Source: Natronospira bacteriovora (GTDB taxonomy: Bacteria > Pseudomonadota > Gammaproteobacteria > Natronospirales > Natronospiraceae). From it: 64,000 nucleotides of DNA. Numbering within the stretch: the first letter of the stretch is position 1; every line of letters begins with the position of its first letter. Below, in pieces: positions 1 through 62,035 of the stretch. The translations under genes and the position numbers were made by a program. The stretch lies in assembly GCF_030848495.1 (NCBI RefSeq), contig NZ_JAVDDT010000006.1, forward strand, positions 1-64,000, in the 5' to 3' direction. The notes beneath the pieces were generated by a model. That model made no database searches and was not told the origin of the DNA. It worked only from the letters and a program-made list of their open reading frames with translations.

Positions 1-322
1 TGAGTGCTGAGTGCTGAGTGCTGAGTGCTGAGTGCTGAGTGCTGAGTGCTGAGTGGGGGCGTTAGAGGGTGTTGGGATGGTTTGGGTGTGACGGCTTCGA
101 AGATGGGGTGAAAGGCCGAAGCCTTCGGCTTCCGCGCTTTGCGCGTATTAGGCCGGCCTGTGGCCGGCCGTTGGGCGCCGCAGGCGCCCGGGTTGCCGCC
201 TCACGCCTTACGCCTCACGCTCGAAGCCGCAACACCCCAAGCCACCCCGGCATCCTCTAACGCCCCTCCGATTCACACCCGGCCCCGCCGACCCGCACCC
301 TCTCAGCACTCAAAACCAAAGC
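1..322. repeat. Composite inverted heptamer element E1
   Basis: Bases 1-55 are seven and a half tandem copies of TGAGTGC. A left arm (about 56-110) follows, then a hairpin row (114-191), then a right arm with short GGCGTAA-type units read in inverse (about 199-222), and a degenerate inverted TGAGTGC pair near 301-315. The left arm is an imperfect inverted copy of the right: GGGGCGTTAGAGG near 57 pairs with CCTCTAACGCCCC near 253-267. The hairpin row contains GCCGAAG/CTTCGGC, GCGC/GCGC, GGCCGGCC twice and GGGCGCC/GGCGCCC. The right arm is nearly identical to E2 and E4. The element may start outside the window. Confidence 0.85.
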
Positions 323-363
323 TTCTGAAGACAATAGGCACACACATACGCTAGACTGAGCTC

Positions 364-645
364 ATGAAGACGCTAGTCTGGAGCTCAGAGAAGAACCAGA
401 AACTGATCAAGGAGCGGGGCGTCTCGTTTGAGGACGTCCTGTTCGCGCTCCAATCCGGCCGGTTGCTTGATGACCTGATTCACCCGAAGCAGGAACAGTA
501 TCCCGGGCAACGGCTGATGATTGTGGAAATCGATGACTACGCCTGGTTGGTGCCCTACGTCGAAAGTGAGAGTGAACTGTTCCTGAAGACAATCATTCCC
601 AGTAGAAAAGCGACCCGGAAATACCTGGCAAAGAGGTCCCCATGA
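364..645 (+). CDS. BrnT-like type II toxin
   Basis: Small 93-aa protein with the outline of BrnT/DUF4258 RNase toxins: an N-terminal strand with a Trp (LVWSSEKN), the segment KERGVSFEDVLFAL that matches the family's 'KHGVSFEEA' region, and a C-terminal KTIIPSRKATRKYL that matches the 'ISARKATRRE' end. By family knowledge BrnT degrades RNA and is held by a DNA-binding BrnA-type partner that also represses the operon. The stop overlaps the start of the next gene by 4 nt (ATGA), typical of TA pairs. The ribosome site upstream of ATG 364 is weak. Toxicity is inferred, and the match is to family outline rather than to catalytic residues I can prove. Confidence 0.7.
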   Translation: MKTLVWSSEKNQKLIKERGVSFEDVLFALQSGRLLDDLIHPKQEQYPGQRLMIVEIDDYAWLVPYVESESELFLKTIIPSRKATRKYLAKRSP

Positions 646-935
646 GCAAAAAACAGCTCGACAAAGAGGAACAGGCGCTGGTGGATGCCTTTGAGGCTGG
701 AGAGTTCCAGTCGGAACTCACCGAAGCCCGTGTGAAAGAGCTCCAGGAGGCGGCGGACGCCACGGCCCGAAAAGACAAGCGCATCAATATCCGTATCTCC
801 AGTCGAGACCTTGAACTGCTCAAGCGCCGGGCCTTGAAAGAGGGGCTGCCTTACCAGTCCCTGGTTGCCAGTATCCTGCACAAATACATCGCCGGAAGCC
901 TGAAAGACATCGAGTCCGACAACAACCATCGCTGA
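642..935 (+). CDS. Ribbon-helix-helix (CopG/BrnA-like) antitoxin
   Basis: 97-aa acidic N-terminal half followed by a CopG-type ribbon-helix-helix: strand KRINIRISSRDLELLK (about residues 47-62), helix ALKEGLPYQSLVASILHKY (about 65-83). This order matches antitoxins that pair with BrnT-like or DUF4258 toxins. The ATG overlaps the toxin stop, so the two are translationally coupled. By family knowledge it should bind and block the toxin and autoregulate the promoter upstream of 364. The pair lies between repeat elements E1 and E2. Confidence 0.75.
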   Translation: MSKKQLDKEEQALVDAFEAGEFQSELTEARVKELQEAADATARKDKRINIRISSRDLELLKRRALKEGLPYQSLVASILHKYIAGSLKDIESDNNHR

Positions 936-1056
936 TCCCAGTCACTTGCGCGAGTAATTCGGAAGGCGCCTCTGTGGTAGCGGCGTCCGCCTCGATCAAC
1001 GCTTGGCCAGAGCCGTTAGCGGGCAGGGAGGCACCGCACGTTCACCGGCTCCGAAG

Positions 1057-1373
1057 GTGAGGCGTAAGGCGTAAGGCGTGAGGTGAAAGGCCGAAGCCTT
1101 TGGCTTCCGCGCTGCGCGCGATCCGCCCGGCCGGCAGGCCGGCCGTTGGGCGCCGTAGGCGCCCGGGTTGCCGCCTCACGCCTTACGCCTTACGCCTTAC
1201 GCCTTACGCCTTACGCCTCACGCTCGAAGCCGCAACACCCCAAGCCACCCCGGCATCCTCTACCGCCCCTCCAGTCCACGCCCGGCGCCAGCCGAATGCC
1301 CAGCCCCTCCGATCAACCCCGGCCCCTCCGACCCGCACCCTCTCAGCACTCAGAACTCAGCACTGAGAACTCC
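1057..1373. repeat. Composite inverted heptamer element E2
   Basis: The 510-base gap before the next gene holds this element. A left GGCGTAA/GGCGTGA array (1057-1083) is followed by the hairpin row (1089-1165), a right inverted array of five or more such units (about 1172-1233), the conserved arm beginning CTCGAAGCCGCAACACC, and a short inverted TGAGTGC/TGAGTTC array (1341-1373). No left TGAGTGC array is present, so this copy looks truncated or rearranged on the left. Bases 970-1020 hold a degenerate REP-like hairpin. Long open frames through the element are artefacts of stop-free repeat translation. Confidence 0.85.
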
Positions 1374-9250: not shown

Positions 9251-9367
9251 GAGTTCTGAGTTCTGAGTTCTGAGTTCTGAGTTCTGAGTTCTGAGTTCTG
9301 AGTTCTGAGTTCTGAGTTCTGAGTGCTGAGTGCTGAGTGCTGAGTGCTGAGTGCTGAGTGCTGAGTG
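9251..9367 (+). repeat. Heptamer array, left arm of element E3
   Basis: About 16.7 tandem units: first TGAGTTC-type units, then a block of TGAGTGC units, so the array has two homogeneous sub-blocks. It faces the inverted array at 9680-9760. Read on the plus strand it has TGA in each frame; read on the minus strand it is open, which is what extends the miaB frame upstream. Confidence 0.95.
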
Positions 9368-9679
9368 GGTGCTGGTCGGAGGGGGCGGGGTTGATCGGAG
9401 GGATGGGGCTTTCGGTTGGCACCGGGCGTGAATCGGAAGGCGACCTGGGCCGAAGCCGTGCCACCTGCTGTGGGAGCGGCATTCCTGCCGCGATTGGGGT
9501 TTGCCGGAGCCGGGAAGCCGGCGGTGCCGCTCGCCCGCTAACGGCTCCGGCAAGGCGTTGATCGAGGCTAAAGCCTCTCCCACAGGCACGGCATCGATCG
9601 GGGCCGCCTTTTCGATTCACGATTCACTCAAAATGCCGATTACGACTACGACTACGATTACGACTACGAGGGCACTGCC
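9368..9679. repeat. Core of element E3 with facing REP-like hairpins and a GAYTAC array
   Basis: The core between two inverted arrays in the 673-base miaB/ydcF gap. It starts with GGTGCTGGTCGGAGGGGGCGG, which recurs after the arrays at 12168 and 61214. REP-like TGTGGGAGCGG (9469-9495) faces CGAGGCTAAAGCCTCTCCCACA (9562-9585), and between them GCCGGAGCCG pairs with CGGCTCCGGC, so the core can fold as one long stem. Bases 9638-9669 are a six-base array of GATTAC/GACTAC. No gene is visible here. Confidence 0.8.
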
Positions 9680-9760
9680 CACTCAGCACTCAGCACTCAG
9701 CACTCAGCACTCAGCACTCAGCACTCAGCACTCAGCACTCAGAACTCAGCACTCAGAACT
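9680..9760 (-). repeat. Heptamer array, right arm of element E3
   Basis: About 11.5 units of CACTCAG/AACTCAG, the inverse of the left array. The last units are mixed GAACTCA and GCACTCA. It ends about 80 bases before the YdcF-like start. Confidence 0.95.
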
Positions 9761-12102: not shown

Positions 12103-12109
12103 TGATTGG

Positions 12110-12523
12110 TGCTGAGTGCTGAGTGCTGAGTGCTGAGTGCTGAGTGCTGAGTGCTGAGTGCTGAGTGGGTGCCGGTCGGAGGGGCTGGCGGTTCTCGGAG
12201 GGACCGGGCTTCGAGGGGCTGGTGAGGCGTAAGGCGTAAGGCGTGAGGGGAAAGGCCGAAGCCTTCGGCTTCCGCGCTTTGCGCGTATCAGGCCGGCCTG
12301 CGGCCGGCCGTTGGGCGCCACAGGCGCCCGGATTGCCGCCTCACGCCTTACCCCTTACGCCTCACGCTCGAAGCCGCAACACCCCAAGCCACCCCGACCC
12401 CCCGCTAACGCCCCTCCGATTCACACCCGGTGCCAACCGATAGCCCGATCCCTCCGATCAACCCTGCCCCCTCCGACCAGCACCCACTCAGCACTCAGCA
12501 CTCAGAACTCAGCACTCAGAACT
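12110..12523. repeat. Composite inverted heptamer element E4 (most complete copy)
   Basis: Full nested structure: TGAGTGC array (12110-12167), left arm with GTGCCGGTCGGAGGGG, inner GGCGTAA/GGCGTGA array (12223-12248), hairpin row (12254-12331), inverted inner array (12340-12368), arm with CTCGAAGCCGCAACACC, CCCCTCCGACCAGCACCC pairing with the left arm, and inverted outer array (12484-12523). Both arms pair over most of about 200 bases. It fills the marR/yggX gap. No gene is visible in it; open frames crossing it are repeat translation. Confidence 0.9.
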
Positions 12524-12583
12524 CCCCTCATAAGTTACAATCCCCCCACACCGAATCATCCGCCAAACCTCAAGGAGCGCGCC

Positions 12584-14629: not shown

Positions 14630-14818
14630 CTTCGCCGGCAGGAGCAAGGAGCTAGGAGCAAGGAGCAAAAGGCACAACAGTTGCTGGTTGCTGTGGGAGA
14701 GGCTTTAGCCTCGATTAGTGCCTGCTGATGGCAGCAGTCGAGGCTAAAGCCTCTCCCACAGCAGAAAACTCCCGAGCCGGCTTTTTCCTTGCTCCTTGCT
14801 CCTTACTACTTGCTCCTA
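14630..14818. repeat. Element E9: AGGAGCA heptamer arrays around facing REP-like hairpins
   Basis: Left: GCCGGCTTCGCCGGC hairpin, then four AGGAGCA/AGGAGCT units (14640-14667). Centre: TGTGGGAGAGGCTTTAGCCTCGA (14692-14716) facing TCGAGGCTAAAGCCTCTCCCACA (14738-14760), separated by a CTGCTGATGGCAGCAG hairpin. Right: inverted units TTGCTCC/TTACTAC (14786-14817). It has the same plan as the other elements with a different heptamer. The right array overlaps the 3' end of mutY and supplies its last codons and stop. Confidence 0.85.
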
Positions 14819-18221: not shown

Positions 18222-18293
18222 GGTGAAGGCTTCCTTGGCCCGGGGGTTGGAAGCATCCATTCTAGCGTTTGGAGGCGATGGGGTGTGAGGGGG

Positions 18294-18570
18294 AGTTCTG
18301 AGTTCTGAGTTCTGAGTTCTGAGTTCTGAGTTCTGAGTTCTGAGTGGGGGAGTGGGGGTTGTGGGCGTGAGTGTAGTGGTGATCGGGGTTTTGGGAACGA
18401 GTGAGGCGTAAGGCGTGAGGGAAGGGCCGAAGCCTTTGGCTTCCGCGCTTTGCGCGTGTCAGGCCGGCCTGCGGCCGGCCGTTGGGCTCCACAGGCGCCC
18501 GGTTTTTACCTCACGCCTTACGCCTTACGCCTCACTCGTTACTCCTCACGCCTTACGCCTCACTCGCACC
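18294..18570. repeat. Composite inverted heptamer element E5
   Basis: Fills the 369-base gap between asmA and the tRNA. TGAGTTC array (18294-18345), GTGGGGGTTGTGGGCGTGAG arm, GGCGTAA/GGCGTGA units (18401-18420), hairpin row (18425-18502), then inverted CCTTACG/CCTCACT arrays (18508-18570) in two blocks separated by TCGTTACTC. There is no right TGAGTGC-type array; the element ends about 20 bases from the tRNA 3' end. Confidence 0.85.
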
Positions 18571-18704: not shown

Positions 18705-18772
18705 GAGTTCTGAGTTCTGAGTTCTGAGTTCTGAGTTCTGAGTTCTGAGTGCTGAGTGCTGAGTGCTGAGTG
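18705..18772 (+). repeat. Heptamer array upstream of S23 gene 1
   Basis: About 9.7 units, TGAGTTC first and TGAGTGC last, the same two-block order as at 9251. Faces the inverted array at 19190-19221 across the S23 gene. Confidence 0.95.
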
Positions 18773-18816
18773 GGGTAGCTTTGGAGTTTGGGGGGCTTAC
18801 GGGGGAGCGTCGGGGG

Positions 18817-19176
18817 GTGCGGCGGTTTGAGGATCTGGTTGCTTGGCAGAAGGCTCGTGCGTTGACTCGGGCGATTTATCAGCACACCAGTCGAGGGCAA
18901 TTCGAGCGTGATCTTGGGCTGTGCGGCCAGATTCAGCGCGCGGCCGTTTCTGTCATGTCGAATCTGGCGGAAGGATTTGAGCGCGGATCGAGCCGCGATT
19001 TCCATCGTTTCCTCGTTATCGCAAAAGCTTCTTGCGCGGAACTCCGTTCGCAGCTCTACGTGGCGCTGGACAACGGCTACCTGACACAGTCGGAGTTTGA
19101 GGCGCTCAGCAAGATGAGCCTGGAAGTCTCAAAAGTCATAGGCGGCCTGCGAGCAGCCGTCTCCCGTCAAAGATAA
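18817..19176 (+). CDS. S23/Avd-like four-helix-bundle protein 1
   Basis: 119 aa. Matches the '23S rRNA intervening-sequence protein / four helix bundle' family: [69 protein letters not shown], and a closing helix. The fold is that of Avd, the accessory protein of diversity-generating retroelements; these stand-alone relatives have no known function and are not inside rRNA here. GTG 18817 is chosen: GGGGGAG lies about 10 bases upstream and homologs start at this point; an upstream start would translate the heptamer array. Both sides are inverted heptamer arrays. Confidence 0.88.
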
Positions 19177-19189
19177 ACCCAGCGCCCGG

Positions 19190-19221
19190 AACTCAGCACT
19201 CAGCACTCAGAACTCAGCACT
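19190..19221 (-). repeat. Heptamer array downstream of S23 gene 1
   Basis: About 4.5 units of GAACTCA/GCACTCA, inverse to the array at 18705. It overlaps the 3' end of the next gene and gives it the residues VLSSEC and the TGA stop at 19200. Confidence 0.95.
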
Positions 19222-20453
19222 TCCCCATACAACCCCACCAACTTCGGCCCTTCCGTCTCCCACGACAGCCAGCGCCCATTGCGCCGGGCCGAGGCCGCGA
19301 AACGCGCCCTGAGCTCGGCATCGTCGCGCAGGCGAATCATGGCATCACGCACGGCGGTCGGGTCGGCGGGGTCCACCAGGAGGCCGAAGTCGGCTTCGGT
19401 GACGATCTTGCGGATTTCGGGGAAATCGCTGGCAATGACCGGCAGGCCGGCCATGCCGTATTCGAAGATCTTGTTGGAGTCGGTGGTGTAATGGTTCAGG
19501 CCGGCGTTTTCCAGCAGCTGCAGGCCCACATCCGCGGAGGCCGTCCACTCCGCCAGTTCCTGCCAGGGCACGGCGTCGAGGAAATGCACCCGCTCGCTCA
19601 CGCCCAGGGCCCGGGCACGTTCACGCAGGGTCTCGCGCAGGATGCCGGGGCCGAGGAAGGCGAAATGCGCCTCCTCCACCTCCGGGACCCGGTCGATGAT
19701 CATCTCCAGGCCACGTCGGGGCTGCAGCCCGCCCTGGTAGAGAAACAGCACCGCCTCGTCCGGAATGGCCACGGCCTCGCGCAGGCGGCGACCGGCCTTC
19801 ACTTCCCGGTACAGGGGGCGGTTCTGGATCACCACCGGCTCGGGGATGTCATGCACGCGGGCGAAGTGCTCGGCGCGCAGGCGGGTGGTGGTGATCATCT
19901 TTGCCACGCGGCGGGCGAAGTAACGCTCGAAGCGGCCCACCACCGGCCCCATGCGGCCAAAACCGGTGCGGTCGGTGGTGATCTCGTGGGCATCGTAGAT
20001 GACCGGCCGGCCGCGGGCGGAGCAATACACCCAGGGCAGGGCCTGGATGTCATGGGCGTGATAGACATCGGCGCGCAGGGAACGGATGGCGCGGGTAAAG
20101 CGCAAAAAGCCCGGCAGCACGCGCACGGCGCGCAAAAGAATGGCCACCGGGCCGGGGCGGTTCTTGTGCAGGGCCCAGGGCTCGGGCCGGCGAATGGTGA
20201 GCACGTCGAAGCCTTCCGGATGACGATGGCGCCCGATTTCTTCCGGATCCCAGCTCGCCGCCACCACCGTGACCCGGGCACCGCGGCGGGCAAGCTCCGC
20301 CGCCGAGCGCACCACGCGGGCATCGTGACGCAGGCTGCCCCAGACCGCCATCACCACATCGCGCCCCGCCAATCGCTCACCCCCGGCCGATTGCTCACCC
20401 CCGGCCGATTGCTCACCCAAGGGGCGCGCGCCCTGATTTTCCCCACTGCTCAT
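19200..20453 (-). CDS. GT4-family glycosyltransferase
   Basis: 417 aa GT-B enzyme. N-domain: MAVWGSLRHDARVVRSAAELARRGARVTVV, DVYHAHDIQALPW; C-domain: AVLFLYQGGLQPRRGLEMII, FAFLGPG, and NHYTTDSNKIFEYGMAGLPVIASDFPEI with the nucleotide-sugar-binding Glu. It is a close relative of the gene at 20537. The first 33 residues include a degenerate EQSAGG repeat encoded by 18-bp direct repeats (20375-20420), so translation may really begin near residue 34-35 (about 20351). The C-terminal VLSSEC and stop come from a heptamer array. Donor and acceptor unknown. Confidence 0.82.
   Translation of the reverse strand: MSSGENQGARPLGEQSAGGEQSAGGERLAGRDVVMAVWGSLRHDARVVRSAAELARRGARVTVVAASWDPEEIGRHRHPEGFDVLTIRRPEPWALHKNRPGPVAILLRAVRVLPGFLRFTRAIRSLRADVYHAHDIQALPWVYCSARGRPVIYDAHEITTDRTGFGRMGPVVGRFERYFARRVAKMITTTRLRAEHFARVHDIPEPVVIQNRPLYREVKAGRRLREAVAIPDEAVLFLYQGGLQPRRGLEMIIDRVPEVEEAHFAFLGPGILRETLRERARALGVSERVHFLDAVPWQELAEWTASADVGLQLLENAGLNHYTTDSNKIFEYGMAGLPVIASDFPEIRKIVTEADFGLLVDPADPTAVRDAMIRLRDDAELRARFAASARRNGRWLSWETEGPKLVGLYGEVLSSEC
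20375..20420. repeat. 18-bp direct repeat in glycosyltransferase 5' end
   Basis: Two and a half copies of GCTCACCCCCGGCCGATT at 20375, 20393 and 20411, in frame with the gene (six codons per unit), coding EQSAGG. Copy number changes would keep the reading frame. Confidence 0.85.
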
Positions 20454-23507: not shown

Positions 23508-24809
23508 TCAGGATCGGGCCATGCCGTTGAGCCCCAGCAGATTCACCACATCAATCATGCGCGCCAGATCCAGCCGCCGACCGTTGAGGTCTTCCTGCAG
23601 TGCCGTATGCGCCACCAGGGCCACACTAAGATCGGCCTGCTCCAGGGCGTCATCAAGGCTAACCAGTCTCACATTGCTGCAGTCGGCAAGCTCCGGGGGC
23701 AGGGCATTCACATGAGGCTCCACCGCCAGCACCGTCAACCGCGAGTGCTCGGCCAGCAACTGGACCACCTGTACTGCGGGGCTGGAACGAAGGTCTTCCA
23801 CATTGGGCTTGAAGGCCAGGCCGAGACAGGCAACGGTCACCTCACCGTCGGGCAAGGCCTGCATCACCTGTTGAGCCACGAAGACAGGCTTGTATTCATT
23901 CACCTCGCGCGCTGTTGTCATCAGGCGGGCGAGCTCCGGGGCCGAAGCAATCAGAAACCAGGGGTCCACGGCAATACAATGCCCCCCGACGCCAACCCCC
24001 GGCTGCAGGATATCCACGCGCGGATGACGGTTGGCGAGCTCAATCAACTCCCAGGGATCAATGCCGTGCTGCTCGCAGACCAGGGAAAGCTCATTGGCGA
24101 AGGCAATGTTCACATCCCGATAGGCATTCTCGGCCAGCTTGCACATCTCCGCCGTGCGCACATTCGTGCGAACAAGTTCGCCGCGCACGAAGCGCCGATA
24201 CAGATCGCAGGCGGCATCGGCGCAGCGGCTGGTCATGCCCCCGATGATGCGGTCATTGCCCACCAGCTCCTGCAAGACCCGCCCCGGCAGCACCCGTTCC
24301 GGGCAGTGCGCCACCCGGATATCGGCTTCCTGCCCGGCCTTGTGCGGAAAACTGAGATCCGGACGTTCCTCGCCCAGCCAGGCACACAACTGCTCCGTGG
24401 TGCCCACCGGACAGGTGGATTCCAGGATCACCGTATTGCCGGCCTCCAGCAAAGGCGCCAGGCTCCGTGCCGCCGCTTCCACATGGCTGAGATCCGGCTG
24501 ACGCGCCTCACCCAGCGGCGTAGGCACGGCAATGATGAACACATCGGCCGGCTGCGGCTCGACAAAACACCGCAACCGCCCGGCCTGAACCACACTCCGC
24601 ACCACAATATCCAGATCCGGCTCGGCGAACTGGATCTCCCCGCGATTGATGGTATCCACCACCGAATCGACAATATCCACCCCAACGACCTCAAGCCCCC
24701 GCGAAGCCATCACCGCCGCCGTCGGCAGACCGATATAGCCCAAGCCCATTACGCAAACCCGGGTGGGTTTGGAGGACTGAGGACTGAGGACTGAGGACTT
24801 AGAGGACAT
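23508..24809 (-). CDS. wecC: UDP-N-acetyl-D-mannosamine dehydrogenase WecC
   Basis: 433 aa UDP-sugar dehydrogenase producing UDP-ManNAcA from UDP-ManNAc with 2 NAD+. Motifs: GLGYIGLPTAAVMASRGLEV (NAD fold), STCPVGTTEQL, AHCPERVLPGR, and catalytic-cysteine region GVGVGGHCIAVDPWFL; C-terminal UDPGDH domain ends with a DVVNLLGLNG loop. The N-terminal residues SSKSSVLSPQSSK before the NAD fold are translated from a GGACTGA array in its open direction, so the natural 5' end seems replaced or extended by repeat sequence. Start ATG 24809 overlaps the preceding S23 gene by 11 bases. Confidence 0.92.
   Translation of the reverse strand: MSSKSSVLSPQSSKPTRVCVMGLGYIGLPTAAVMASRGLEVVGVDIVDSVVDTINRGEIQFAEPDLDIVVRSVVQAGRLRCFVEPQPADVFIIAVPTPLGEARQPDLSHVEAAARSLAPLLEAGNTVILESTCPVGTTEQLCAWLGEERPDLSFPHKAGQEADIRVAHCPERVLPGRVLQELVGNDRIIGGMTSRCADAACDLYRRFVRGELVRTNVRTAEMCKLAENAYRDVNIAFANELSLVCEQHGIDPWELIELANRHPRVDILQPGVGVGGHCIAVDPWFLIASAPELARLMTTAREVNEYKPVFVAQQVMQALPDGEVTVACLGLAFKPNVEDLRSSPAVQVVQLLAEHSRLTVLAVEPHVNALPPELADCSNVRLVSLDDALEQADLSVALVAHTALQEDLNGRRLDLARMIDVVNLLGLNGMARS
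24771..24805. repeat. GGACTGA heptamer array at the wecC start
   Basis: About four and a half GGACTGA units on the plus strand. On the minus strand it is open and encodes the first residues of WecC. It is the left partner of the arrays at 25181-25270 around S23 gene 2, though the unit differs. Confidence 0.85.
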
Positions 24810-25155
24810 CCTGCTTCTGCCTTATTAATCCGCCGAGAAGGGAAAAAACCGTATCAAGCTGGTCAGTCAGCTCGGCATCAGGCCGGCTAAAACCAAGCTC
24901 GTTGGCAATGATAACCTGAGTCTCCAATTCCGCGAGCGATCCCCTGGCCATAACCAGGAAACGAACCATGTCAGCCGATGTTGCCCGCGCTGCTCCCTCA
25001 CTGATGTTACTGGGAACCGAAACGGCGGCCCGGCGCATCTGGCTCATGAGCCCGTATCGCTCGTCCGCTGGAAATTGCCCTGTGAAACGATAGACCAGTT
25101 TTACCAGGGTCACCGCTTCCTGCCATGCACGTAGTTTGTGGTGGGCGCGTGTCAT
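24799..25155 (-). CDS. S23/Avd-like four-helix-bundle protein 2
   Basis: 118 aa, same family as 18817: HHKLRAWQEAVTLVKLVYRF, GLMSQMRRAAVSVPSNISEGAARAT, RFLVMARGSLAELETQVIIANELGF, and a last helix DTVFSLLGGLIRQ. The conserved core 'RRAAVSVPSNISEG' is canonical. ATG 25155. It separates wecB from wecC, which are normally adjacent, and overlaps the wecC start by 11 bases. Heptamer arrays lie on both sides. Function unknown; not within an rRNA gene. Confidence 0.9.
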   Translation of the reverse strand: MTRAHHKLRAWQEAVTLVKLVYRFTGQFPADERYGLMSQMRRAAVSVPSNISEGAARATSADMVRFLVMARGSLAELETQVIIANELGFSRPDAELTDQLDTVFSLLGGLIRQKQDVL

Positions 25156-54060: not shown

Positions 54061-55878
54061 TCACTCGGACTCACCTGACAGGGCTCTAAGCAGCTCCTGG
54101 GCCGCATCGCCATCTTTTTCCCGACTTGCACTGTCCGCACCCAACTGACGCAGGCTCTGTGCGGCAACGGACAATCGATGGTTAAGCTTACCGAGTAACT
54201 CGTCCTGCTGTTCTTTCCGTCTCACAAGGGCTGCGTAGCGTTCCTGGAGGTCCTTGAGGTCCCGGTCACGCTGAGTCTGCAGTCTAATTGCGACTGACAA
54301 ATCACTACGGGAATCTCTCAACGCTTCCTCGATACGCGCCTTCTCTTCTTCCAACTTAAGCCTGGCTTCACGCTCCGTGGCTAGCTGCTCTCGCTCCTTG
54401 GCTGCTTCCTCTCTGGCCTGCGTGACCTGGCTCTCCAGCTCGGCTCGGGTTTCCTGCTCCTTCTTGAGTGCCGCAGCCTGCTCCTCCGCCTTCTGTTTGG
54501 ACTGTTGCTGCTGCTCCGCGAGCTTCTCCTTGAGCGAATCACGTTCCTTGGCTAGCTGCTCTCGCTCCTTGGCTGCTTCCTCTCTGGCCTGCTTGAGCTG
54601 GCTCTCCAGCTCAGTTCGGGTTTCCTGCTCCTTCTTGAGTGCCGCAGCCTGCTCCTCCGCCTTCTGTTTGGACTCTTGCTGCTGCTCCGCGAGCTTCTCC
54701 TTGAGCAAATCACGTTCCTTGGCTAGCTGCTCTCGCTCCTTGGCTGCTTCCTCTCTGGCCTGCTTGAGCTGGCTCTCCAGCTCAGTTCGGGTTTCCTGCT
54801 CCTTCTTGAGTGCCGCAGCCTGCTCCTCCGCCTTCTGTTCGGACTCTTGCTGCTGCTCCGCGAGCTTCTCCTTGAGCGAATCACGTTCCTTGGCTAGCTG
54901 CTCTCGCTCCTTGGCTGCTTCCTCTCTGGCCTGCTTGAGCTGGCTCTCCAGCTCGGCTCGGGTTTCCTGCTCCTTTTTGAGCGCCGCAGCCTGCTCCCCC
55001 GCCTTCTGTTCGGACTGTTGCTGCTGCTCCGCGAGCTTCTCCTTGAGCGAATCACGCTCCGTGGCTAGCTGCTCTCGCTCCTTGGCCGCTTCCTCTCTGG
55101 CCTGATTGAGCTGATTTTCCAGCTTGGCTCGGGCTTCCCGCTCTTTGCTTAGTGCCTCGGCCTGGTGCTCTGTGGTGTTCTCCGCTTTTTGGACCTTCTC
55201 TTGGAGCTTGATCAGTTCCGCATTGAGACGTTCTATTTCCAGCCTTTCGATATTCTGCTTTAGGTGCCAGGTGGGACGATCAGGGTCGGCATCATCCACT
55301 TCGCCCTCGAGCTGATAGCCCTGTTCTTCCAGGAAGGCGAGCACTTCCTGGGCGGGGGCTACGCCCTCGTAGAGGGATTCCTGGCCGCAGCGGAGCACGA
55401 TATTAGCAATGCGCGAGAGGGTGTTTTCTTGCTGCAGAGAGCGGAGGATGGCCTCTTCTTCGCCCGGGGTATCGACGATCAGGCAGATTGACTGGGCATT
55501 GGCGAGCTGGGCTTCATCCAGCAATTCGACCGGTGTGACTGCCTCGACGGCCACTTCGCGGACCAGCCGCAGCCCGGGGAAGAGGTCTTTCAGGCCAGTG
55601 GCCGGGCGAAGACTGCTGACTTCCGGCAGGTTGTAGGTATGCAGAACACGCTCGCCGGGTTCGTCGGAGACGGCATAGGGCAATACAGTGATGTTTGCGT
55701 TGTCGCTGGTTCGGCGTTCTAGTGTTTTGGCCAGGGCCGGATTTGCTTCCACCAGTACAACCGAGGTGCTGGCTGGCAGGGCCTGATAGGCCGCAAGCTC
55801 CTGACAGCGGCCAGCGCCGAGGTGGACGATGGCATCGGCATTGTTGAGAGCAATCTGTAGTTGCGGGGTCACGCTCAT
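54061..55878 (-). CDS. FkbM-like methyltransferase domain with long repetitive coiled coil
   Basis: 605 aa. Residues 1 to about 200 look like an FkbM-type methyltransferase: AIVHLGAGRCQELAAYQALP, VVLVEANPALAKTL, ITVLPYAVSDEPGERVLHTYN, though motif I is HLGAGRCQE and may be weak. From about 205 to 590 the protein is an unbroken, highly charged coiled coil. Residues about 256-499 are a 57-residue unit repeated about 4.3 times (QAREEAAKEREQL / SLKEKLAEQQQ / EEQAAALKKEQETR). The layout recalls WbdD, in which a catalytic terminator sits on a coiled-coil ruler that sets O-antigen length. This role is inferred. Confidence 0.72.
   Translation of the reverse strand: MSVTPQLQIALNNADAIVHLGAGRCQELAAYQALPASTSVVLVEANPALAKTLERRTSDNANITVLPYAVSDEPGERVLHTYNLPEVSSLRPATGLKDLFPGLRLVREVAVEAVTPVELLDEAQLANAQSICLIVDTPGEEEAILRSLQQENTLSRIANIVLRCGQESLYEGVAPAQEVLAFLEEQGYQLEGEVDDADPDRPTWHLKQNIERLEIERLNAELIKLQEKVQKAENTTEHQAEALSKEREARAKLENQLNQAREEAAKEREQLATERDSLKEKLAEQQQQSEQKAGEQAAALKKEQETRAELESQLKQAREEAAKEREQLAKERDSLKEKLAEQQQESEQKAEEQAAALKKEQETRTELESQLKQAREEAAKEREQLAKERDLLKEKLAEQQQESKQKAEEQAAALKKEQETRTELESQLKQAREEAAKEREQLAKERDSLKEKLAEQQQQSKQKAEEQAAALKKEQETRAELESQVTQAREEAAKEREQLATEREARLKLEEEKARIEEALRDSRSDLSVAIRLQTQRDRDLKDLQERYAALVRRKEQQDELLGKLNHRLSVAAQSLRQLGADSASREKDGDAAQELLRALSGESE
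54381..55110 (-). repeat. 171-bp in-frame tandem repeat in coiled-coil gene
   Basis: The sequence CTAGCTGCTCTCGCTCCTTG recurs at 54381, 54552, 54723, 54894 and 55065, an exact 171-base period, giving about 4.3 copies of 57 codons. Copies differ by few bases (for example Ser/Leu at one codon, KQK/EQK at another), so they are recent duplicates. Copy changes keep the reading frame and would lengthen or shorten the coil by 57 residues. Confidence 0.95.
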
Positions 55879-60985: not shown

Positions 60986-61147
60986 TCGTGACTCCCTCCG
61001 ACGTCCTGTCAGTGCTGTTTTTTGAGGTATTGGCCCTTCCCGACCAATTCCCTCTTATGTTTAATCACGCGCCGATCCCCCTTCCCCTTCGGCGCGTTGC
61101 GAGCGCAATTGAGTATAGGGGATGCGCGGTTGGGTGTGAAGGTGGAA

Positions 61148-61255
61148 GTGCTGGGTGCTGAGTGCTGAGTGCTGAGTGCTGAGTGCTGAGTGCTGAGTGC
61201 TGAGTGCTGAGTGGGTGCTGGTCGGAGGGGGCGGCGGTTCTCGAAGGGGCGGGGC
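61148..61255 (+). repeat. Heptamer array and left arm, element E8
   Basis: The 301-base gap between galU and the antitoxin holds this. About nine TGAGTGC units (first GGGTGCT) at 61148-61213, then the arm GGGTGCTGGTCGGAGGGGGCGG shared with E3 and E4. No inverse arm follows directly; the next arrays (61924-62035) lie beyond the NadS/toxin genes. Confidence 0.9.
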
Positions 61256-61286: not shown

Positions 61287-61577
61287 TTAGGCGCTCAAGG
61301 CGCGGAATACATGCTCCGGATCGTTACGGACGGCATGCAACAAAGCCAGGGCCGGCCCTCGGGGTTGGCGCCGGTTCTGCTCCCAGTTGCGCAAGGTTCC
61401 AACGGGTACACCGATCAGTGCCGCGAACTCGTCCTGCGTCAGTTTCAGTTGGCGCCGAACGGCCGCTACGTCAACGGGATCGAAACGGTGCTCTCTGGCA
61501 ACAGCGCCTTTCCGGCGGCGAATTTCTCCGGCCTGCCGAATGCTCTCGGTCAGTTCTGCAAAAAGCTTCTCATCCAT
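61287..61577 (-). CDS. NadS/HigA-type helix-turn-helix antitoxin
   Basis: 96 aa. N-terminal helix MDEKLFAELTESIRQAGEIRR is that of NadS-family antitoxins; residues about 32-88 are an HTH_3 domain, DVAAVRRQLKLTQDEFAALIGVPVGTLRNWEQ. By family it neutralises a RelE/HigB-type toxin encoded just upstream and represses the pair. The ATG overlaps the ancestral toxin stop by 8 nt, the usual NadT-NadS order. The antitoxin is intact while the toxin is broken. Confidence 0.88.
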   Translation of the reverse strand: MDEKLFAELTESIRQAGEIRRRKGAVAREHRFDPVDVAAVRRQLKLTQDEFAALIGVPVGTLRNWEQNRRQPRGPALALLHAVRNDPEHVFRALSA

Positions 61578-61871
61578 TGGACAACTCCTCTTCCACGAGG
61601 CGGCGCAGAACCTTAAGCTGCTCTGCCGTCAAATCTGCCTGCCTGTTCTTGGCATAGGCCAGCAACATAGCCGAAAGTAGATGATCCTTGCTCCGCCGCG
61701 CTTACCCCTTCCAGGCACATTCCAGCGGACTTTGCGCAGACCGCCGCTGCCGGGTATTTCGGCCCCAATCGCCGGATTGGTCACCAAGGCCCACTGCAGT
61801 TCCCGATAGCTTTCATCCGTAAGCAGACCATTGATCTGCCTTGTAAATACTGGCGTTTCCTTGATTACCAT
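61570..61871 (-). pseudogene. RelE/HigB-type toxin, frameshifted
   Basis: Residues from ATG 61871, MVIKETPVFTRQINGLLTDESYRE to NVPGRGKRGGARIIYF, match the first two thirds of RelE-like NadT toxins. The frame then runs to CCWPMPRTGRQI and stops at 61629. In another frame the expected tail continues: MLLAYAKNRQADLTAEQLKVL and LRRLVEEELSNG, ending at 61570 over the antitoxin start. About 20-25 bases around 61665-61680 (coding the strand before LLAYAK) appear lost. The toxin should be inactive. A second ATG 61907 exists upstream but homologs begin near 61871. Confidence 0.8.
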
Positions 61872-61923
61872 GTTCTTGGAGAATACGCCATTGGCGTAGT
61901 TCCGCAAGTTTGGGCGGCTTTGC

Positions 61924-62035
61924 CGGCAGGAGTAAGGCGCCAGGAGCAGGGAGCAAAAGGCGGAACAGTTGCCGGATTCGGGGATGGTGCCTTGGGGCGG
62001 TTTTCCTCACGCCTTACGCCTTACTCGGCCCATCA
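61924..62035. repeat. Heptamer arrays, element E10 (mixed type)
   Basis: The 268-base gap before ftsY. GCCGGCAGGAGTAAGGCGCC and AGGAGCAGGGAGCA are AGGAGCA-type units (61924-61958, like E9), followed by CCTCACGCCTTACGCCTTAC (62006-62030), inverted GGCGTAA units. So it mixes two heptamer types. With E8 it brackets the antitoxin/toxin pair. Confidence 0.8.

Follow-up and report, generated by a model that had tools for sequence, protein, structure and literature searches.

Heptamer arrays, composite elements and S23 genes in the window

The window, the whole 64,000-nucleotide stretch analysed, comprises positions 1–64000 of contig C6 from a genome of 3.0 Mb in 15 contigs, with genes called by a custom script. 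It contains two families of tandem heptamers, A (TGAGTNC, or CTCAGNA on the opposite strand) and B (GTRAGGC, or GCCTYAC), which build composite elements lying among two S23 genes, a BrnT/BrnA-like gene pair and an antitoxin-like gene (Table 1). Genome-wide, the A pattern matched 139 times in the forward and 135 times in the reverse orientation; because these 274 matches compare with 0 for a reversed control pattern, the A arrays exceed chance. Searching the genome with the element as query returned 114 matches, with 40 of 72 candidate places scored.

Table 1 Repeat arrays, composite elements and associated genes in the window
Feature	Position	Strand	Remarks
E1 left end: A− heptamer array, TGAGTGC ×7.9	1–55	−	contig starts within array
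E1 remainder: left arm, core hairpins, B+ (198–218), right arm, A+ remnant unit near 301–312	56–345	+	
BrnT-like toxin ORF, 93 aa	364–645	+	PF04365, 28.9 bits, below Pfam cut-off 34.5
CopG/BrnA-like antitoxin ORF, 97 aa	642–935	+	PF12441, 31.2 bits, above cut-off 28
E2: B− (1057–1077), core, B+ (1172–1223, CGCCTTA), right arm, A+ (1342–1372); without left A array	1046–1372	+	
Non-coding element, A− 9251–9366, A+ 9680–9760	9251–9760	.	
Complete non-coding element A−, B−, core, B+, A+	12109–12524	+	begins 7 bp past stop of MarR-like gene (gene end 12102)
Element A−, B−, core, B+, without own A+	18293–18565	+	adjoins tRNA-Gly
S23 cassette: A− array 18705–18772, S23 ORF, A+ array 19191–19221	18705–19221	+	
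S23 / 23S rRNA IVP protein	18763–19176	+	PF05635, 116 bits
Second S23 gene (24799–25155) with GAGGACT ×4 array (24772–24799) overlapping gene 3′ end	24772–25155	−	
A− array adjoining HTH antitoxin-like ORF	61147–61213	−	
HTH antitoxin-like (NadS-type) ORF	61287–61577	−	HTH_3, 36.3 bits
Short B+ array, far side of HTH antitoxin-like ORF	62011–62024	+	

In the full element at 12109–12524, both A and B are inverted about a hairpin core. Of its two A arrays, E1 (1–345) retains the left, the right being reduced to a remnant, and E2 aligns to E1 at 78% identity over query positions 104–291. The interior of the element at 9251–9760 is one that we take to be REP-like. Heptamer arrays also lie at or beside contig ends, at window position 1 and at the ends of C5, C8 and C13; since several contigs begin or end in this way, the copy number of the element is probably underestimated.

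Two other repeats were seen. A third heptamer family, AAGGAGC, unlinked to the A/B elements, occurs in the window at 14640–14668 and 14786–14817 and elsewhere in the genome at L055 3095–3122, L064 8489–8535 and L086 3819–3846. At 54368–55164, a 171-bp tandem unit is repeated 4.7 times with 94% matches within the minus-strand ORF 54061–55878.

S23 is a four-helix-bundle protein, with PDB relatives 2gsc (XCC0516) and 2rld. The genome has four S23 genes, and the two ORFs in the window score 116 and 108.5 bits against the curated PF05635 cut-off of 33.8. The first-pass annotation had placed both of these between arrays, which is correct for 18763–19176, bounded by A− and A+; the gene at 24799–25155 instead abuts GAGGACT ×4, with B-like repeats on its opposite side. 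The cassette around the former lies between tRNA-Gly and a protein gene, not inside a 23S rRNA gene, and the stop codon of the minus-strand gene 19200–20453 falls inside its A+ array. Of the remaining three S23 genes of the genome, two have heptamers on the 3′ side, namely GAGGACT in the gene at 24799–25155 and ACTGGGA (14 bp past the stop) in another, and the last has no heptamer array. The A heptamer is used by one S23 gene of the genome versus dozens of A-carrying elements, and the arrays are the sole sequence that the non-coding elements share with S23.

Few arrays lie beside toxin–antitoxin or other accessory genes

The toxin–antitoxin genes in the window have elements close by. The BrnT/antitoxin pair, described in the first-pass annotation as bracketed by near-identical elements, does sit between two copies of the composite element, but with 78% identity and a left A array missing from E2 the copies are not near-identical. 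Similarly, the HTH antitoxin-like ORF has an A array and a short B array around it, but ORF 61629–61907, taken earlier as its toxin partner, had no Pfam match. Elements could in principle supply the homology for capture and loss of toxin–antitoxin and other accessory modules, and the position of BrnTA between two copies and of the antitoxin ORF beside an A array would fit this idea, as would the fact that both toxin–antitoxin loci found in the 543 kb scanned lie near arrays, whose 700-bp surroundings make up 72 kb. This proximity is a weak, post-hoc signal.

We set such placements against counts from 27 stretches around elements and S23 genes and 13 control stretches, the latter containing no A-family arrays. 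Among the 39 gaps that are longer than 250 bp and contain arrays, only four touch BrnTA (two), the HTH antitoxin (one) or S23 (one), so the genome-wide pattern of accessory modules that had been proposed did not emerge, and core genes occupy comparable intervals. Two further array-bearing gaps flank an ORF without a Pfam match. The genes enclosed by close element pairs are mostly ordinary (coaD-like, holA, an AbgT transporter), and so are the other neighbours of arrays (ribosomal L33 and L28, SpoU methylase, Rieske, MoaE, SlyX and others). A scan of 166 of the 187 small ORFs away from arrays (110 + 56; 21 window ORFs left out) yielded three S23 and two GxxExxY members, and neither GxxExxY copy of this genome is directly beside an array. 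In samples of 30 loci each from the taxonomic class, heptamer arrays within 350 bp numbered 0/29 and 0/30 for BrnT, and 0/30 and 0/29 for GxxExxY. Most arrays, then, have no accessory gene beside them; the converse, that accessory genes mostly lie away from arrays, holds for GxxExxY and, within the taxonomic class, for BrnT, and S23 behaves in the opposite way. The two congeners are distant, with flanking DNA too diverged from this genome for element–element recombinants to be traced in them.

On these counts (4/39 gaps; BrnT and GxxExxY class loci without arrays), we rejected capture of accessory modules by the elements and regard it as highly improbable. The toxin–antitoxin story thus drops out of the explanation for this locus. 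As a separate observation, elsewhere in the genome (L062 4865–5873), A− and A+ arrays flank an ORF of 142 aa that has no Pfam match.

S23 genes are associated with mirror-image heptamer arrays across bacteria

The main sample comprised 90 S23 loci, best-scoring rather than random: 10 from the order (one fragment included) and the best 80 of 549 confirmed from genome contigs. A period-7 array was present within 350 bp of 42 of these loci, across phyla, and absent at the chosen threshold from the other 48. Counted by side over full windows, arrays occurred at 26/80 on the 5′ side and 34/88 on the 3′ side, versus 23/856 background windows (about 3%). They hug the S23 ORF, mostly 1–110 bp from its start or stop; periods of 5, 6, 9 and 10 were nearly absent beside S23, and period 8 was uncommon. 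Arrays on both sides were found at 20 of the 90 loci, and in 15 of these 20 the units were mirror images (reverse-complement units with at most one mismatch, in any rotation), compared with 24 of 380 mismatched pairs; direct copies occurred once in the 20.

Both the association and the mirror symmetry were replicated in two further samples, each of which includes near-copies and orthologous sites. From the phylum, 30 S23 loci gave arrays at 10/30 and 16/29 with mirror-image units in 5/6, and 23 S23 loci on viral contigs gave arrays at 13/23 and 5/23 with mirror-image units in 5/5. A search for S23 in named phages produced no match. The A arrays themselves were confined to 3 of the 19 genomes in the order sample. 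Across bacteria, S23 is an integral part of the element and not a captured passenger.

This association also bears on whether the composite elements are of REP type, mobilised by RAYT, with the heptamers as decoration and S23 unrelated. The element cores are hairpins and some interiors have what we take to be a likeness to REP sequences, both in keeping with such an origin. The bond between heptamers and S23, however, persists in many genomes with other units, and the dispersed array pairs of a second genus, described below, hold only a short spacer; we consider a REP-type origin very unlikely.

Relatives of the window S23 protein occurred in 22 plasmid records, eight of which were read. The S23 gene lies between cas6 and cas4 in Anabaena sp. 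90 and Pseudanabaena galeata, between cas10 and a Cmr3-family gene in Picosynechococcus PCC 7003, and between two ribonucleotide reductase genes in Nostoc edaphicum; beside WP_104899637.1, two Nostoc plasmids differ, S23 being downstream in one and upstream in the other. The two gaps around S23 form inverted repeats beyond all 300 shuffles in three of the eight plasmids and not in the other five. Loci L355, L357 and L359 are S23 genes within CRISPR-Cas operons of cyanobacterial plasmids.

The repeat unit varies with the S23 protein

Heptamer distance was correlated with S23 protein distance among 61 S23 loci below 80% identity (Mantel r = 0.126, p = 0.001; reverse strand, r = −0.003). Heptamer distance also correlates with GC difference, and after removal of GC the relation to S23 distance was r = 0.118 (p = 0.002) in the same 61 loci. 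The unit thus varies yet appears to track S23 phylogeny, with a small effect. TGAGTGC-like units recur with the S23 proteins of this genome, a Planctomycetota and an unclassified bacterium, which are alike to 60% or more. Read inward, 28 of 63 units contain stop codons, versus a shuffled mean of 25.8; because there is no excess beyond composition, adaptation of the arrays through stop codons is not supported, and we rejected stop codons as a general reason for the heptamers.

Arrays are set against gene 3′ ends

In this genome, the outer side of 33 A arrays faces the 3′ end of a gene; 29 of them lie within 13 bp of it, and 19 keep register with its stop codon. A further 21 face a gene 5′ end and are mostly farther off. 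Placement beside S23 in the sampled loci follows the same direction. For 30 of 46 arrays on the 5′ side, the start is no more than 30 bp from the 3′ end of a gene, compared with 12% of random points; for 22 of 54 on the 3′ side, the end is no more than 30 bp from that of a minus-strand gene, compared with 9%. Selection against promoter disruption may explain part of this 3′-end placement.

S23 cassettes are present or absent at one junction in a second genus

We analyzed presence and absence in a second genus (g304, 81 genomes), using as query L241, in which two genes flank an S23 gene and its TAGGCAG arrays. At this orthologous junction, 19 loci are filled by an S23 cassette with inverted TAGGCAG arrays and measure 451–596 bases between fixed flanking points, and in 11 loci the junction is empty, measuring 49–54 bases with the two genes adjacent in base-by-base comparison; it is also empty in genome G642 (L331). 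More than 30 further genomes gave a two-piece L241 match of this type among the matches listed, a few of them with other break points. In filled alleles, the array starts at or just past the stop codon of the upstream gene and sometimes replaces that codon. Inspection by eye revealed no target-site duplication at this junction, where the flanks have diverged.

We then placed the filled and empty states on a tree of the left flank built from 32 loci picked by score (20 filled, 12 empty). The state changes at least three times on well-supported branches and eight times by parsimony. Since it changes repeatedly on the flank tree, loss or allele exchange must have occurred besides insertion.

Different junctions are also occupied. 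In G642, a related cassette, 73% identical, lies directly past the stop of another gene (L319 2141–2633), with its 3′ array extending to the contig end. It carries an eight-letter unit, TAGGGCAG, on both sides, whereas its relatives have seven letters. The octamer on both sides means that the arrays changed in concert, suggesting that one was copied from the other or both from one template.

The TAGGCAG pattern was present in 29 of the 31 genomes of the second genus that were searched. None of 19 further TAGGCAG places, taken from four genomes, contained S23. Every one is 27 bp or less from the 3′ end of an ORF and oriented as expected. Judged by eye, each of the 19 arrays has a mirror partner, in some cases decayed, with only a short spacer between.

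Such placement raises the alternative that the arrays are 3′-UTR or terminator elements arising in place by slippage, with S23 merely at like junctions. Arrays of both genera sit at gene 3′ ends, in many cases where two genes converge, and form hairpins; in the second genus, array length differs among close relatives; and GGGAATC heptamers of Xanthomonas have the same placement and inverted pairs, with no insertion-sequence association found in the accessible part of the source (PMC4692102). Slippage, however, leaves unexplained the mirror pairs around S23, the presence or absence of a whole cassette at one junction and the tracking of S23 phylogeny by the unit, and BrnT and GxxExxY genes are without arrays. 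We therefore judge slippage in place an unlikely origin of the arrays.

S23 cassettes resemble the intervening sequences of 23S rRNA genes

Folded as RNA, an S23 cassette is closed by a perfect 34-bp stem (z = −6.3), and the window cassette has z = −4.4. Comparable features are on record for the 23S rRNA IVS. In the IVS of Coxiella, two or three heptamers in tandem precede the start codon of S23, and the terminal stem measures 28 bp; S23-encoding IVSs occur in Coxiella and also in Leptospira and others, according to the part of PMC4990558 available to us. Both kinds of sequence hold one S23 ORF inside terminal inverted repeats, a criterion of an IVS, and form a long stem, with tandem heptamers before the S23 start in the Coxiella case; as far as the accessible source goes, mobility of the rRNA IVS has long been suspected. 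In contrast to the rRNA IVS, which RNase III excises from the transcript, the cassettes lie between protein genes, end in tandem heptamer arrays and have dispersed non-coding relatives. Insertion of the sampled S23 loci into rRNA was rejected, as short 23S rRNA motifs, the only motifs used, were found at 0 of 143. Because the layout with the S23 ORF in the stem loop matches that of the 23S rRNA IVS, we interpret the cassettes as IVS-like elements located between protein-coding genes.

Taken as a whole, the arrays are probably the terminal inverted repeats of small IVS-like S23 cassettes that have non-coding relatives, and the toxin modules are bystanders. A coding member would consist of a heptamer array, an S23 gene and an inverted heptamer array, about 450–600 bp in all, and in non-coding members the inverted arrays would enclose a hairpin core or a short spacer. 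Both types are set against gene 3′ ends, often with the neighbour's stop codon within the array. In the transcript, the two arrays would pair into one long stem, leaving the S23 reading frame in the loop. In the window, 18705–19221 would be the S23 cassette and the elements at 1–345, 1046–1372, 9251, 12109 and 18293 its non-coding relatives, while BrnTA and the antitoxin ORF would be ordinary genes lying between or beside elements by chance.

We infer that the cassette moves as a unit. Since the unit tracks S23 phylogeny, the S23 protein would recognise its own heptamer and is the likely recognition factor; the non-coding members presumably depend on it. S23 is the only protein seen in the cassettes, with no recombinase or transposase there. 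A bolder and tentative proposal, which we think possible though improbable, is that S23 cassettes are widespread minimal mobile elements without a classical recombinase, in which S23 would recognise its own heptamer stem and insert both the cassette and, acting in trans, the non-coding relatives at gene 3′ ends, possibly via an RNA step. On this view, these elements would have one of their niches in the rRNA IVS, and the heptamers of Xanthomonas, Nostoc and Beggiatoa would be their debris. Avd, a DGR-linked relative of S23, hints at an RNA step.

Relation to known repeats and mobile elements

To our knowledge, S23 has a structure without a function, the rRNA IVS has no known way of moving, and reports of dispersed heptamers have come from one lineage at a time, with no cause given. 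The present arrangement recalls MITEs and the REPIN–RAYT system, in which many non-coding palindromic elements accompany a rarer coding relative; in the cassettes, by contrast, no transposase was seen and S23 is the sole protein.

For Xanthomonas, published work already describes heptamer arrays that lie at gene ends and form inverted pairs (PMC4692102, as far as its accessible text goes). The heptamers of Xanthomonas and Nostoc share with those described here their dispersal in arrays and their position near or overlapping stop codons, and in Xanthomonas also the inverted pairs. That paper studies G-quadruplex formation, and the part of its text available to us contains no mention of S23, whereas here the unit varies and S23 cassettes bear the same ends (PMC4692102). 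The TAACTGA heptamers of Beggiatoaceae, Cyanobacteria and Bacteroidetes are likewise intergenic direct repeats in scattered phyla with suspected horizontal spread, but the accessible part of that report places them upstream of start codons and describes neither S23 nor mirror-image cassettes (PMC4679880).

Our literature search, with subscription papers and preprints mostly beyond its reach, found no link between S23 genes and heptamer arrays outside the rRNA and Coxiella IVS. S23 within the rRNA IVS was already known, as were inverted pairs of heptamer arrays and their position at gene ends; the joining of the two outside rRNA appears to be new. It brings S23, the rRNA IVS and dispersed heptamers together in a single object open to testing: a cassette of ~500 bp that ends in mirrored heptamers, encodes its own protein and has identified sites both filled and empty.
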